Source: Acidobacteriota bacterium (lineage in GTDB: Bacteria; Acidobacteriota; Terriglobia; UBA7540). From it: DNA of 12,267 nt. Position numbers and translations under genes: made by a program. How positions within the stretch are numbered: the stretch's first letter is position 1; every line of letters begins with the position of its first letter. The notes under the pieces were generated by a model. It did no database searches and had not been told where the DNA came from. It worked only from the letters and a program-made list of their open reading frames with translations. Where the stretch lies: NCBI GenBank assembly GCA_021789565.1, contig JAJYJL010000098.1, forward strand, positions 1 to 12,267, in the 5' to 3' direction. Shown in pieces: positions 1 through 10,085 of this stretch.

Positions 1-789
1 CGCGCAGATCCCACCCGCGGACAACAGGACCAGGGCGTCAATCAAAGCGGCATAAAAGCGCATCTTCATCTGGGCGATGGAAACGGAGGCGGGTCCGTCT
101 TCGTCGGGAACTGGCAGCGAACTCTTGGAAGGTCCCAGTTCAATTTCAAGCGGCCCCGTATCGGTACCGGGATTTGGCTGAGGCGGTGGTGGTGGCGGGA
201 CCTCCACTGCTTCTTCGCCTTCCAGAAAGGCGGATTCAAAGCTGCCCATACCAAACGACGGAGGGGCAGGGCGGAATTCAGGCCTGAGCTTTGGGTGGCT
301 TGCCGAACTATCCGCGGACGGGAACTCGATCAAATGAGGCCGGGGATCTTCCGGTTTGGGCGGGGAGGGTCCGAAATCCAGGTTCAGCGCGTTGTGGCCG
401 CGCTCCGACTCCTTGTTCAGGCGCGCACGGCGCTGGCGATATTCCTGCACGCGGTCGGCGAGCTCCTCCTGCCAGGGAGAAAGACCCGGGCGAGGCGCGG
501 GCCTTGGGGATGGGATCTCTGCTTCAGGTTGAACAGGGTCTGGGAGGGTGACCTGAGGTTCCAGTTCCACGTCCAGGCTGCCGGATTCCTCTTCGCTCAG
601 CTCTGTCTTGTCCAGTGGCGATTCTGGTTCCGGCTCCGGCTCGACCGGGGCTTCTGATTCCGGACCGAGACGGTGAAAAAGCGGCGGAATTCCCTCAACC
701 GGACCATTCACCTGAGTGAAGTGATGGCCACACTTCTTGCACTCCTCTTTTCCCGGAAAGCTGATAAAACCACACTTAGGACATTTCAC
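1..789 (-). CDS. Zinc-ribbon/RDD-family membrane protein, 3' part missing
   Basis: This frame is open from a GTG at 789-787 to the left edge, giving 263 visible residues. The N-terminus is a zinc ribbon with C3-x2-C6 and C17-x2-C20 (KCPKCG ... CKKCG). Residues about 45-240 form a low-complexity, acidic and proline-rich linker, including an EPEPEPE run and six consecutive prolines. At about residue 240 the sequence becomes MKMRFYAALIDALVLL, which is how the first membrane helix of an RDD domain begins (R near the start, then the Asp in the helix); the rest lies outside the window. The GTG start is chosen because it directly precedes the first zinc-ribbon Cys pair and has a purine-rich AAAGGGGGGG about 11 bases upstream. 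It is transcribed divergently from lptD. RDD proteins are integral membrane proteins of mostly unknown or transporter-like function; the substrate cannot be told here. Confidence 0.82.
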   Translation of the reverse strand, partial: MKCPKCGFISFPGKEECKKCGHHFTQVNGPVEGIPPLFHRLGPESEAPVEPEPEPESPLDKTELSEEESGSLDVELEPQVTLPDPVQPEAEIPSPRPAPRPGLSPWQEELADRVQEYRQRRARLNKESERGHNALNLDFGPSPPKPEDPRPHLIEFPSADSSASHPKLRPEFRPAPPSFGMGSFESAFLEGEEAVEVPPPPPPQPNPGTDTGPLEIELGPSKSSLPVPDEDGPASVSIAQMKMRFYAALIDALVLLSAGGICA

Positions 790-901
790 TGCGACCGGAA
801 CCCCCCCTTTGAGCCTCCCAGCAAAGTTCCCGAAACATCTTAACAAATTCATGCGCGTCAAGAAAGGATTTGCGGGTAGAATACAACTTTTGACAAATGT
901 G
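790..901. promoter_or_regulatory. Divergent intergenic region with a possible lptD -10 box
   Basis: These 112 bp separate the start of the zinc-ribbon/RDD gene (minus) from lptD (plus), so both promoters should lie here. On the plus strand TAGAAT at 877-882 resembles a -10 box and would give a 5' leader of roughly a dozen bases before the lptD ATG at 902. No convincing -35 is seen 16-18 bp upstream of it. On the minus strand TTGACG (revcomp of 855-860) could be a -35, but no good -10 follows at the right spacing. The region is more AT-rich than the flanking genes. The promoter assignment is an inference from consensus only. Confidence 0.3.
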
Positions 902-3244
902 ATGGGCCTCATTAACTACTTTTCCGACCGGCACAGAACTTCCCGATTCTGGCTGGCAACGCCGTTTGTCTTACTGCTGTTGTCCCTTTCCTTTGAAGGG
1001 TTTGGACAATCGCTGCCCGCTCCTCCCGGCCTTATGGACAAGGCTTCTACGGCGACCGTCAGTTCGGTAACCCAGGAAATGAAGGGGGATGTCTACACCC
1101 TGCGTGGGAATGTCGTTTTGACTTACAAAGAAATGCAGCTTACGGCCGACCAGGCTTCTTATAATCAGTCGACCGGCGAAGTAGTTGCCAAGGGCCACGT
1201 CACTTTTAACGACCCTATGGCCCACCTTGATGCCGATGAGCTCCACTACAACGTGGCCACCGGAAAGGGCTGGTTCCTCAATGGCAAGGGGTACGTGCAT
1301 CCGCATATGAAACACCGCCTGGGGGTTATGGAGACCGAAAGCCCTTTTTACGTACAGGCTAAAATCCTTGAAAGGCTGAACGAGCTTTCTTACAAGATCA
1401 CCGACGGCCGCGTGACCACCTGCCCGTGCGAAAACACCGGCTGGTCCATCAGCACCGCCAGCGCCAGGGTGAAAGTCGGAGACAAGGTGATTGCCCGCAA
1501 CAATCTGTTTCGCTTTTTTCGCGTGCCCGTCCTTTACGCTCCGGTGCTGGTGGACTCCATTGCGCCCCGGCCCCGGCAGAGCGGCTTCCTGCTGCCGAAC
1601 GTCGGCAATTCCTCGCAGAAGGGATTTACTTTCGGCGAGGGCTTTTATTGGGCCATGAACCGCAGCGCGGACCTGACGCTGGGCGTGGTCGATTACAGCA
1701 ACCGTGGCCTGGGGGGGAGCGGCGAGTTCCGGGCGCGCCCCACCGCCGACAGCAGCTTTGATGTCAGCGCGTTTGGCGTTCATGATAAGGGACCCCCAAG
1801 TTCTCCGGACCTGGCGGCGCCGGGCGAGAGTTTGAAGGCGACGGGTGAGATCGACAATTTTATCGGGGGTTTTCGGGGTGTCGTCGATGTGAATTACTCC
1901 AGTTCGCTTGCCTTCCAGCAGGCGTTTGCCAGCAACTTTGCGCAGGCCGTCAATTCAGAGGTGCGGCAGACGGGCTTCCTGACAAAGAACTTTGACGCCT
2001 ACAGCGTCAATTTCTACGTTTCGCGCTATCAGAACTTCCTCTCGACGACAGGCGGCGCAGCAAATTCTGTAACCATCCGGCAGACGCCCAGCTTTTCTTT
2101 ATTGGGCATGGACAAGCAGGTGGGCCGCACGCCTCTGTTTTTTTCCTTCGATACCTCTGCTGGAGCGGTATCCCGTTCAGAGCCTGATTTTTCGACTCCC
2201 AATTTTTCCGAGCGCTTCAATTTTCATCCCGAGCTGACTTTGCGGATGAAACCTTTTCTGCACTTTCACGTGACCCCGTCGGGAGGCGTGTGGGTGACGC
2301 GATACGGCACCAGCCTCCGGACGGACCGCAGCGCTGTGGACCGCTTTATGGGCGACTTCTCCCTGGACATCCGGCCGCCCTCATTTGAAAAGGTTTTTGC
2401 CCGCCCGGTCCACGGTTACCTGCTGAAGCATGTGATTGAGCCGGACATTCAGTATCGCCTGGTCCGGGCCGCCGACCCGCAGGATATTATGGACGTGGTG
2501 CGTTTTGACAATCTCGATACGATGGCCGAAACAAATGAAATCGAGTATTCGCTGACCAACACCATCCTGGTGCGCAAAGATGTGCCCAGTGGCCAGCCGA
2601 TTCCCCAGGCCCGCGAACTGCTTTCCCTGCGGCTTTCCCAGATCTATTATTTTGATCCCACTTTCGGCGGGGCGCTCCAGCCGGGCACGGACGTTGTCTG
2701 GCAGCCGACCACGGCGCTGACGGGTTTTGCTTTTGCCCGGGGCCGGAACCTTTCACCGCTGGTTTCCGTGCTGAAGCTGGCGCCGTCTTCGCACTACGAC
2801 ACCGAGTTCCGGGCGGACTTCAGCCCCAATGGCGGAGGCGTGCTGAACGCCGGCATCACCTCCAACGTACACCGGGGGCTGGTGGGCCTGTCGATGACGG
2901 ATTTTTTCATCAGCCGCACAGCGGAGCAGTTGACGCCGGTGCTTCCGACCACCCCGCTTTCCCAGATTCCATCGGCCAACCTGCTTCGCCTGGTTGGAAC
3001 CTATGGAAACATGGACCATAATGGTTTGAGCGGCGCCTTTGGCATCGACTATAACTTTGTGCAGCGCATCGCCCAGGGGGTTGTTGGGCAGCTCGGGTAC
3101 CGTTTTTCATGCTTCGCCGTCAACATGGAATACCGAAGGTTTTCACTGGGTCCAATCCGCCAGGAAAATGAGTTTCGCTTAGCTGTCTCGCTGGCGAATG
3201 TCGGTAGCTTTGGAAACCTTCGGCAGAACGAACGCTTGTTTTAA
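902..3244 (+). CDS. lptD: LPS-assembly outer-membrane protein LptD
   Basis: LptD is the outer-membrane beta-barrel that, with lipoprotein LptE, inserts lipopolysaccharide into the outer leaflet at the end of the Lpt bridge. The 780-residue product has a signal peptide (hydrophobic LATPFVLLLLSLSFEGFG, likely cut after G35). An OstA/LptA-like beta-jellyroll follows at about residues 55-170 (VYTLRGNVVLTYKEMQLTAD, then repeated hairpins with GHVTF). A barrel domain rich in alternating aromatic strands then runs to the C-terminus. The segment TTCPCENTGW (C174, C176) at the end of the jellyroll and LGYRFSCFAVNMEYRR (C737) near the C-terminus match LptD landmarks. ATG 902 is chosen because it leaves a clean signal peptide. 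The frame stays open to a TTG at 737 and an ATG at 851, but those would add a non-signal-like extension overlapping the divergent gene. No strong Shine-Dalgarno precedes 902. It is first of five closely spaced plus-strand genes. Confidence 0.93.
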   Translation: MGLINYFSDRHRTSRFWLATPFVLLLLSLSFEGFGQSLPAPPGLMDKASTATVSSVTQEMKGDVYTLRGNVVLTYKEMQLTADQASYNQSTGEVVAKGHVTFNDPMAHLDADELHYNVATGKGWFLNGKGYVHPHMKHRLGVMETESPFYVQAKILERLNELSYKITDGRVTTCPCENTGWSISTASARVKVGDKVIARNNLFRFFRVPVLYAPVLVDSIAPRPRQSGFLLPNVGNSSQKGFTFGEGFYWAMNRSADLTLGVVDYSNRGLGGSGEFRARPTADSSFDVSAFGVHDKGPPSSPDLAAPGESLKATGEIDNFIGGFRGVVDVNYSSSLAFQQAFASNFAQAVNSEVRQTGFLTKNFDAYSVNFYVSRYQNFLSTTGGAANSVTIRQTPSFSLLGMDKQVGRTPLFFSFDTSAGAVSRSEPDFSTPNFSERFNFHPELTLRMKPFLHFHVTPSGGVWVTRYGTSLRTDRSAVDRFMGDFSLDIRPPSFEKVFARPVHGYLLKHVIEPDIQYRLVRAADPQDIMDVVRFDNLDTMAETNEIEYSLTNTILVRKDVPSGQPIPQARELLSLRLSQIYYFDPTFGGALQPGTDVVWQPTTALTGFAFARGRNLSPLVSVLKLAPSSHYDTEFRADFSPNGGGVLNAGITSNVHRGLVGLSMTDFFISRTAEQLTPVLPTTPLSQIPSANLLRLVGTYGNMDHNGLSGAFGIDYNFVQRIAQGVVGQLGYRFSCFAVNMEYRRFSLGPIRQENEFRLAVSLANVGSFGNLRQNERLF

Positions 3245-9079: not shown

Positions 9080-9085
9080 TATAAT
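9080..9085 (+). promoter_or_regulatory. Candidate -10 box for the selenoprotein gene
   Basis: A perfect TATAAT stands in an otherwise GC-rich 145-bp spacer between mutS2 and the downstream gene, followed by a T-run. Transcription would start near 9092, leaving a leader of about 45 bases. No clear TTGACA-like -35 is found 16-18 bp upstream (9056-9063 reads roughly GTCTGGTT). The assignment is by consensus only. It suggests that the redox gene has its own promoter rather than relying on mutS2 read-through. Confidence 0.45.
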
Positions 9086-9119: not shown

Positions 9120-9137
9120 AGCGGCGAAGGAGCACAG

Positions 9138-9803
9138 ATGGGATTACTCCGTGACGAAGACGCCGTAGAAATCCGCCACCGCTTGAGCGGGATGGCGGCG
9201 CCCGTCAAGATCATTCATTTTACCCATGAGCTCAATCTCGAGTACGGGCCTGAAACGCGGCAGGTGCTGGAAGAACTCGCCGCGCTTTCCGACAAGCTTT
9301 CGCTCGAAGTCTACGACTTTATCCTCGACAAAGAGAAAGTGGCCGAGTACGGCGTGGACAAGGCTCCCGCCACGGTGGTCCGCAACGGGAAAGATTACGG
9401 CATCCGCTATTACGGGATGCCCGCCGGGTACGAATTCTCAACCGTGCTGGATGCCATCCTCGATGTTTCAAAAGGCGAATCGGGCCTGGGCGCCGAGAGC
9501 AGGGAAAAGCTTGCGCGCCTCAGCCAGCCGGTCCACCTCGAGGTGTTTGTCACTCCCACCTGACCGCATTGCCCCCAGGCGGTCCGCCTGGCCCAGCAGT
9601 TTGCAATGGAAAGCGAGCACGTCACGGCCGACTGCATTGAGGCCACCGAATTTCCCGACCTGGTCACCCGGTATCGCGTCCATGCGGTTCCCAGGACGAT
9701 CATCAACCAGAAGCATGCGCTCGAAGGCTCGCTGCCGGAAAGCCATTTTCTCGATACGATTCTCAGCGCAGTGCTGTCGCCGGAAGAAGGCGCTGAAGCC
9801 TGA
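9138..9803 (+). CDS. Selenocysteine-containing PDO-like thioredoxin-fold oxidoreductase (UGA = Sec142)
   Basis: The frame starts at ATG 9138 behind an ideal AAGGAG, meets an in-frame TGA at 9561-9563 and continues to TGA 9801-9803, giving 221 residues if the first TGA is decoded. Both halves align by eye with P. furiosus protein disulfide oxidoreductase (PDO), a tandem of two thioredoxin folds. The first half contains LSLEVYDF, KAPATVV with cis-Pro77, and GIRYYGMPAGYEF. The junction reads HLEVFVTPT-U-PHCPQAVRLA, where PDO has FVTPT-C-PYC. Then come VHAVPRTII (cis-Pro185) and EGSLPESHFL. The TGA thus replaces exactly the first Cys of the C-terminal CxxC, giving a U142-P-H-C145 redox centre, and a SECIS-like hairpin follows at once. 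The N-terminal domain has HELNLEY where PDO has CxxC, so only one redox centre remains; another Cys is C166. The likely role is cytoplasmic thiol/disulfide exchange or peroxide/disulfide reduction; the partner is unknown. Conventional gene calling would end it at 9563 or split it. The alternative is a nonsense mutation or sequencing error (TGC to TGA). Confidence 0.85.
9564..9600 (+). promoter_or_regulatory. Bacterial SECIS-like stem-loop directing Sec insertion at UGA 9561-9563
   Basis: Immediately 3' of the UGA the mRNA can fold as follows. The lower stem is 9568-9572 (AUUGC) with 9596-9600 (GCAGU, one G-U pair). An internal loop follows (CC at 9573-9574 against CCCA at 9592-9595). The upper six-base-pair stem is CCAGGC (9575-9580) with GCCUGG (9586-9591), closing a five-base apical loop GGUCC (9581-9585). 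The loop GGU lies 18-20 nt after the UGA. In E. coli fdhF, from memory, the loop is GGUCU with GGU at 19-21 nt. SelB recognises the apical G-U in such hairpins. The folding was done by eye, not by an energy program. Confidence 0.75.
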
Positions 9804-9883
9804 TGTGCCGTTTGGAACGGGGTGCGCGTTTGGGTTGTACCCCGCCCCGGGTTATTCACGACGCAGAAGTATTCCGTGAAAGG

Positions 9884-10028
9884 GCACGACTTCAGTCGTG
9901 CTGTTGGAATGCCTCAAAAGCTCCTATCGGGGCTTCAGCCCCTGAACGGAACGCTCAGGGTGCCGGAATTTTCAGCGGCTAAAGCCGCTTCCTTCAAAGC
10001 GCCTTTTCGGCACGACTAAAGTCGTGCC
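9884..10028. repeat. Cluster of four REP-like palindromes arranged as an inverted array
   Basis: Four perfect short hairpins with two-base loops fill the gap between convergent genes: P1 9884-9901 (8 bp, core CACGACT-TC-AGTCGTG), P2 9929-9942 (6 bp, GGGGCT-TC-AGCCCC), P3 9974-9989 (7 bp, AGCGGCT-AA-AGCCGCT) and P4 10009-10028 (9 bp, GGCACGACT-AA-AGTCGTGCC). P4 is the reverse-orientation partner of P1. P3 in reverse reads like P2, both continuing as CTGAA. The unit is therefore an overall inverted array with its centre near 9957. TC loops on one side become AA on the other, as expected for opposite orientation. This resembles the REP/BIME elements moved by RAYT transposases, and similar palindromes are common in acidobacterial intergenic regions as far as I recall. 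No transposase is present. None has a T-run, though they may still act in 3'-end stabilisation. Confidence 0.75.
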
Positions 10029-10085
10029 CCTTCTCCCCGTTCGTGTCAATGTTCGCTGGTCCGTGAATAGCCAAGTCTACCGCCC

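Follow-up and report, generated by a model that had tools for sequence, protein, structure and literature searches.

A selenocysteine (Sec) form of the TIGR02187 family of protein disulfide oxidoreductases (PDOs) has been known since 2006, when Zhang et al. listed two selenoproteins, from Carboxydothermus and Symbiobacterium, as "homolog of AhpF, amino-terminal domain" (PMC1794560). The available text of a 2022 and a 2026 review equates this name with TIGR02187 and gives the motif as UxxC (PMC9312934; PMC13188914), and the family also has a Sec form in Asgard archaea, according to the accessible part of a further paper (PMC11227280). The preliminary description of the gene reported here had left open whether such a form had been described; the first three of these sources, as far as they were available, answer that it had, and the gene is a further case and not a new type. 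For the Acidobacteria, the portions at hand give four selenoproteins of three families in the 2006 table (PMC1794560) and three known selenoprotein genes in Occallatibacter riparius in a 2025 paper (PMC12013277). Those counted may already include an acidobacterial Sec-PDO; the open-access literature searched, available in part, yielded no report of one.

The window, which is the whole stretch of DNA analysed, comprises 12,267 nucleotides of an Acidobacteriota contig. As had been proposed, a single frame runs from its ATG to TGA 9801-9803, and its sole internal stop is the TGA at codon 142 (Table 1). Seventy-nine codons follow this TGA, beginning with P-H-C-P-Q-A-V-R-L-A. In what follows, L-numbers denote loci of relatives and G-numbers the genomes bearing them, G001 being the genome of L001, the closest relative. 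By eye, a TATAAT upstream of the gene is also found in L003 and L004, and is missing from L001, L002 and L005.

Table 1. Features of the Sec-PDO gene and its surroundings in the window
Feature	Position	Strand	Basis
Probable selenoprotein PDO gene (TIGR02187), 221 residues, TGA 142 read as Sec	9138..9803	+	Frame, family score, alignment, relatives
In-frame TGA at codon 142, opening the UxxC active site	9561..9563	+	Frame, Pyrococcus alignment, relatives
TGC, second Cys (145) of U-P-H-C	9570..9572	+	Cys in 87/87 aligned rows
SECIS-like hairpin CCAGGCG-GTC-CGCCTGG, loop GTC 9582-9584	9575..9591	+	Begins 11 bases behind the TGA
Pro185 codon, presumably the cis-Pro position of the thioredoxin fold	9690..9692	+	Pro in 87/87 aligned rows
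Codons 34-37 (L-E-Y-G), site of the N-terminal CQYC in Pyrococcus PDO; lost here	9237..9248	+	Alignment
AAGGAG, 5 bases upstream of ATG, which we take to be the likely ribosome binding site	9127..9132	+	Sequence
TATAAT, possible -10 element, assumed from the consensus	9080..9085	+	Sequence

The predicted product matches TIGR02187 (NCBIfam PDO_seleno_TRX) with 265.4 bits against a cut-off of 185, over residues 6-210. By sequence, the solved structures closest to it are the Pyrococcus PDOs 1j08 (E 6e-51) and 1a8l (E 2e-49), and alignment to them places TGA 142 on the first Cys of FVTPTCPYC, the second CxxC, which is the catalytic position to which the preliminary description had assigned it. The C-terminal part had been called family-like, including Pro185, and this proline is indeed present throughout the aligned rows. 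An AlphaFold2 model, built from a 36-row alignment (35 among the 120 relatives listed) with the TGA modelled as Cys, has a tandem thioredoxin fold (pLDDT 92.2, pTM 0.88). TM-scores are 0.92 to 1j08, 0.93 to 1a8l and 0.92-0.94 when the Aquifex PDO entries 2ywm and 2ayt are included; against AhpF entries they range from 0.78 to 0.86, with 0.85 and 0.86 for the N-terminal domain entries 5h29 and 6il7 and 0.79-0.85 across 5h29, 1zyn and 4o5q. The second domain carries the active site U142-P-H-C145 together with Pro185. The N-terminal CxxC is absent (L34-E-Y-G37), so that the protein is a member of TIGR02187 but not a two-site PDO.

We consider it almost certain that the gene encodes a two-domain Sec-PDO of TIGR02187 in which UGA 142 is Sec, and which would act as a one-site selenol-disulfide reductase. 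The Sec reading draws on conservation and statistics in relatives, on the sel machinery in the relatives' genomes and on the fold, all of them computed from sequence; the family score, the tandem fold of the model and the pattern at codon 142 likewise favour the Sec-dependent PDO/tandem-thioredoxin protein that had been suggested. The product would be a two-domain thioredoxin-fold protein disulfide oxidoreductase, probably cytosolic, its UGA 142 decoded as Sec with the help of SelB, Sec-tRNA(UCA) and the hairpin that immediately follows. At the UPHC site of the second domain, Sec142 would attack and Cys145 resolve; the first domain, its CxxC lost, is probably a scaffold or docking domain, and because of this loss the protein would work at one site. 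A thioredoxin-reductase-like flavoprotein may be the donor, and electrons would pass to target disulfides or peroxidases much as in the AhpF N-terminal domain, both target and direction being conjectural.

The same selenoprotein might serve instead as a disulfide oxidase or a PDI-like isomerase, since PDO homologues of hyperthermophiles are described as disulfide-bond formers and isomerases. We think this role rather unlikely. The N-terminal CxxC, which is part of the two-site PDO design, has been lost here; Sec usually serves reducing reactions; and the AhpF domain, whose fold is by computation the same, relays reductant.

Relatives had been expected to carry either Cys or TGA at codon 142, and this was borne out. 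Across 147 related loci, with the window excluded and the duplicates L038, L127 and L170 removed, the codon is TGA in 64, TGC in 44, TGT in 39 and nothing else, counts that are not to be read as population frequencies, because one scan pattern represented the motif in its Cys form and the Chloroflexota are represented by the 30 best matches. The Cys-form pattern, used in the first contig scan, can bias only against finding TGA. Further in-frame stops in the 147 matched frames occur at codons 211 and 214 alone, near the natural ends.

The first contig scan yielded 21 loci, with TGA at codon 142 in L001-L006, all from Acidobacteriota MAGs and 68-83% identical to the window, and TGC or TGT in the other 15. 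Matches (E up to 1e-25) were found in 72 of the 396 genomes of the Acidobacteriota sample (phylum of L001), 30 of these genomes having TGA at codon 142 and 42 having Cys. The Bacillota sample (phylum of L009) gave matches in 21 of 299 genomes, with TGA in 13 of 26 loci, and the Chloroflexota sample (phylum of L014, Dehalococcoidia) in 87 of 301, with TGA in 15 of the best 30 loci; for these two phyla combined the figure is 28/56. The TGA form is found in the samples of all three phyla. One genome, G399, has two close Sec-PDO copies (L100 and L105), both with TGA at codon 142, and in G202 the PDO match (L055) sits within a reported open frame of 942 residues that may be a fusion.

The UGA could be a true stop, leaving a 141-residue N-terminal protein and a separate frame from ATG 9606. 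Protein records offer some support: 25 among the 120 relatives listed (of 7362 passing) have their last residue directly ahead of codon 142, the shortened annotation that had been foreseen for this gene, and the list of open reading frames contains a 65-aa frame starting at ATG 9606 (codon 157), downstream of TGA 142. It is nonetheless very improbable. Among the three stop codons TGA alone occurs at codon 142; P143, C145, A152 and A156 are invariant in 36 rows and all fall within residues 143-156, between the TGA and ATG 9606; and the piece from 9606 would, judging from the model, lack the active site as well as the strand and the helix with which the second fold starts.

The hairpin behind the TGA was assessed by counting pairs in relatives. 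With the register taken from the window's own fold, 37 TGA genes (the window included) form on average 4.19 of six pairs, where synonymous shuffles form 3.20 (z 6.3), while the same six pairs in 53 Cys genes score 2.66 both in the genes and in the shuffles. Sliding this register by -1 or +1 lowers the TGA genes to 3.43 or 3.54 pairs. Taking the best of two registers gives 5.08 against 3.75 in the TGA genes (z 9.7) and 2.85 against 2.93 in the Cys genes (z -0.8); since the second register was added after the sequences had been seen, z 9.7 has to be read as post hoc, and z 6.3 is the safer value; related rows are not independent in either. At least five of the six pairs, over the two registers, are formed in 27/37 TGA genes and 5/53 Cys genes, 10 TGA genes falling short. 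The window's loop, GTC, has the G expected of a bacterial SECIS apical loop, but the loop bases GT are common to both classes (36/37 TGA genes, 46/53 Cys genes) and by themselves do not discriminate. Folding of the whole region was a weak test: single-sequence folds of five genes did not outperform dinucleotide shuffles (z -0.73 to +0.83), and 45-nt fold energies against synonymous shuffles differed slightly between the classes (mean z -0.70 in 37 TGA genes, -0.30 in 53 Cys genes; Mann-Whitney p 0.048). It was therefore replaced by the pair counting in one named hairpin. An Rfam search of the window gave no match. By these pair counts the SECIS-like hairpin exceeds synonymous shuffles family-wide in the TGA genes and not in the Cys genes.

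A search for selA, selB, selC and selD had been suggested, and all four are present in G001, which serves as a proxy for the host: selA scores 591 bits, selB 357 and selD 372, and there is a tRNA-Sec with anticodon TCA. Within the Acidobacteriota sample, selB (TIGR00475) exceeds the cut-off in 254/396 genomes; the proportion is 30/30 in TGA genomes against 15/42 in Cys genomes (Fisher p 2e-9), and p is 1e-6 for TGA genomes against all other genomes of the sample, both values being uncorrected for kinship. Of the seven genomes bearing L001-L007, six have a selA over its cut-off (G002, of 2.0 Mb, has no selA match) and six a selD (the exception is G006); selB passes its cut-off in G001 and G004-G007. 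The selB of G003 is in two pieces in one frame, both below the cut-off, and the best match in G002, where none exceeds it, is a 405-residue frame that we read as resembling EF-Tu. Partial selB matches were left uncounted, as selB-like frames of ~400 residues resemble EF-Tu by our reading. Tracts in G004 (C233:1982-3735) and G005 (C489) have tRNA-like matches beside partial selB-like frames and are probably tuf/tRNA clusters.

The tRNA-Sec family search (RF01852) proved unspecific, with matches over the cut-off in 5/14 control genomes, and ARAGORN was therefore used as a check. It finds tRNA-Sec with anticodon TCA in G001, G003, G004, G005 and G008 (genome of L008), and no convincing tRNA-Sec among the matches of G002, G006 and G007. 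The weak RF01852 matches L028 and L029 were rejected as Thr, Tyr and Gly tRNAs, and L027, a 50-bit match at the end of a contig of G007, because ARAGORN recognizes no tRNA there. All four sel genes are seen in G001, G004 and G005, and the set is incomplete in the TGA-bearing MAGs G002, G003 and G006, likely as a result of missing contigs. The selD genes of G001-G005 (L120-L124) themselves have an in-frame TGA and look like Sec-containing SelD.

If UGA 142 were decoded as something other than Sec, it would be as Cys by a selC*-type tRNA with a UCA anticodon, or as Trp by a changed code. Transfer RNAs of the selC* type that carry Cys are known, some with a UCA anticodon, and the available text places their hosts in Firmicutes, Thermodesulfobacteria, Nitrospirae and Proteobacteria (PMC7609411). 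Here the TCA tRNAs of L023-L026 are typed by ARAGORN as tRNA-Sec, and the wide occurrence of selA in the genomes of L001-L007 points the same way. A global code change was rejected, for the PDO gene itself and mutS2 both terminate in TGA. Decoding as Sec is accordingly our reading, and any other decoding of this codon is highly improbable.

Homology had been predicted not to decay behind the stop. Between the window and L001, dN/dS is 0.083 before the TGA and 0.149 behind it; against L002-L005 it is 0.07-0.10 before and 0.05-0.20 behind, with synonymous change near saturation beyond L001; against the Cys form L007 it is 0.17 before codon 142 and 0.21 behind, and for L006 the ratio could not be given. 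On these ratios the codons behind TGA 142 are under purifying selection. Loss of the Cys codon by point mutation in a dead gene, or a sequencing error, would take a single base (TGC to TGA), but with the TGA shared by 64 of the 147 relatives from many assemblies, and with the low dN/dS behind it against L001-L005, this is extremely improbable.

Sec and Cys have been exchanged repeatedly in the family, as reconstructed from the trees, on which changes were counted irrespective of direction. In a tree of 87 rows with the trait columns masked (dropping L014, L017, L054 and L110 as partial, L019-L021 as short and L038 as the same as L001), the Sec/Cys label must change 10 times, and well-supported branches force 8 of these changes; a quick tree of 138 rows, from which L127, L146, L147, L152 and L170 were also dropped as duplicates or partial, needs 15. 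Sister pairs are L006 (Sec) with L007 (Cys), support 100/100, and L042 (Sec) with L040 (Cys), 100/99. The genome of L007, G007, keeps selA, selB and selD over their cut-offs, and L007 may represent a switch in a genome that still decodes Sec.

The clade that unites the window, L001 and L002 lacks the N-terminal CxxC (L-E-Y-G there), which is absent from the Cys form L007 as well. The motif has been lost in other Sec groups as well (SESG and PES types) and is kept in many. It is missing from 19/37 Sec and 5/50 Cys rows in the 87-row set, and from 19/64 and 6/74 in the 138-row set; a link between Sec and this loss is not claimed, since independent-pair tests gave a median p of 1, with too few differing pairs. 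More tentatively, the window's clade could be a one-site Sec-PDO with all chemistry on the single UxxC, a stand-alone selenium counterpart of the AhpF N-terminal relay; no description of such a subclass or its function was found in the literature searched, which was available in part.

Upstream of the PDO gene lie lptD, hemB, an S13 peptidase, a gene for a LOG-type protein and mutS2; the opposite strand downstream carries a phosphoribosyltransferase (apt), an acylphosphatase (acyP) and a glycerol-3-phosphate-dehydrogenase-like gene (glpD), assigned by Pfam with the finer gene names being our reading. Pfam matches nothing in the 304 residues encoded at 1-912 (-). L001 and L002 share the order mutS2 - PDO - apt - acyP - glpD, in which the gaps reach about 2 kb; apt also follows the PDO gene in L003-L005 and lies within about 1 kb in L007, and L006 and the more distant loci gave no match to any neighbour. 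The genes adjoining the PDO gene, in the window and in the relatives' loci, include no redox partner. Between the PDO gene and apt, at 9850-10072, are nested inverted repeats (GGCACGACTTCAGTCGTGC ... GGCACGACTAAAGTCGTGC), whose arms at 9878-9901 and 10010-10033 are 92% complementary; they look like an intergenic palindromic repeat element.

What is added to the earlier work is a TGA form in samples of three phyla, a repeated exchange of Sec and Cys, and a clade with the Sec site alone. The Sec-PDO recurs in Acidobacteriota, in the 30 TGA genomes of a sample in which selB is widespread. Because gene calling often cuts the enzyme at residue 141, selenium use in Acidobacteriota, Bacillota and Chloroflexota has probably been under-counted. 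With its 10 changes and close Sec/Cys pairs, the family offers a good natural experiment for asking why selenium is gained or lost by an enzyme.

The PDOs of Pyrococcus (1a8l, 1j08) and Aquifex (2ayt, 2ywm) have two thioredoxin folds, as does the window protein. The second active site of the Pyrococcus PDO aligns with the U-P-H-C of the window, with Cys where the window would have Sec, and Pyrococcus keeps the N-terminal CQYC that the window protein lacks. The AhpF N-terminal domain has the same tandem fold and one working site, in its second half; it uses Cys and is fused to a thioredoxin-reductase domain, whereas the window protein stands alone, with Sec. Sec-thioredoxin and Sec-glutaredoxin are single-domain proteins. 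They share with the window protein the UxxC of thioredoxin-like proteins but, in the available text, belong to families (PF00085 and PF00462) other than TIGR02187 (PMC13188914). Closest are the published Sec proteins of TIGR02187, which, compared through the listings at hand and not through sequences, share the family model, the UxxC and the single Sec with the window; the members named in those sources, as far as available, come from Carboxydothermus, Symbiobacterium and Asgard archaea, and the window belongs to an Acidobacteriota clade without the N-terminal CxxC.
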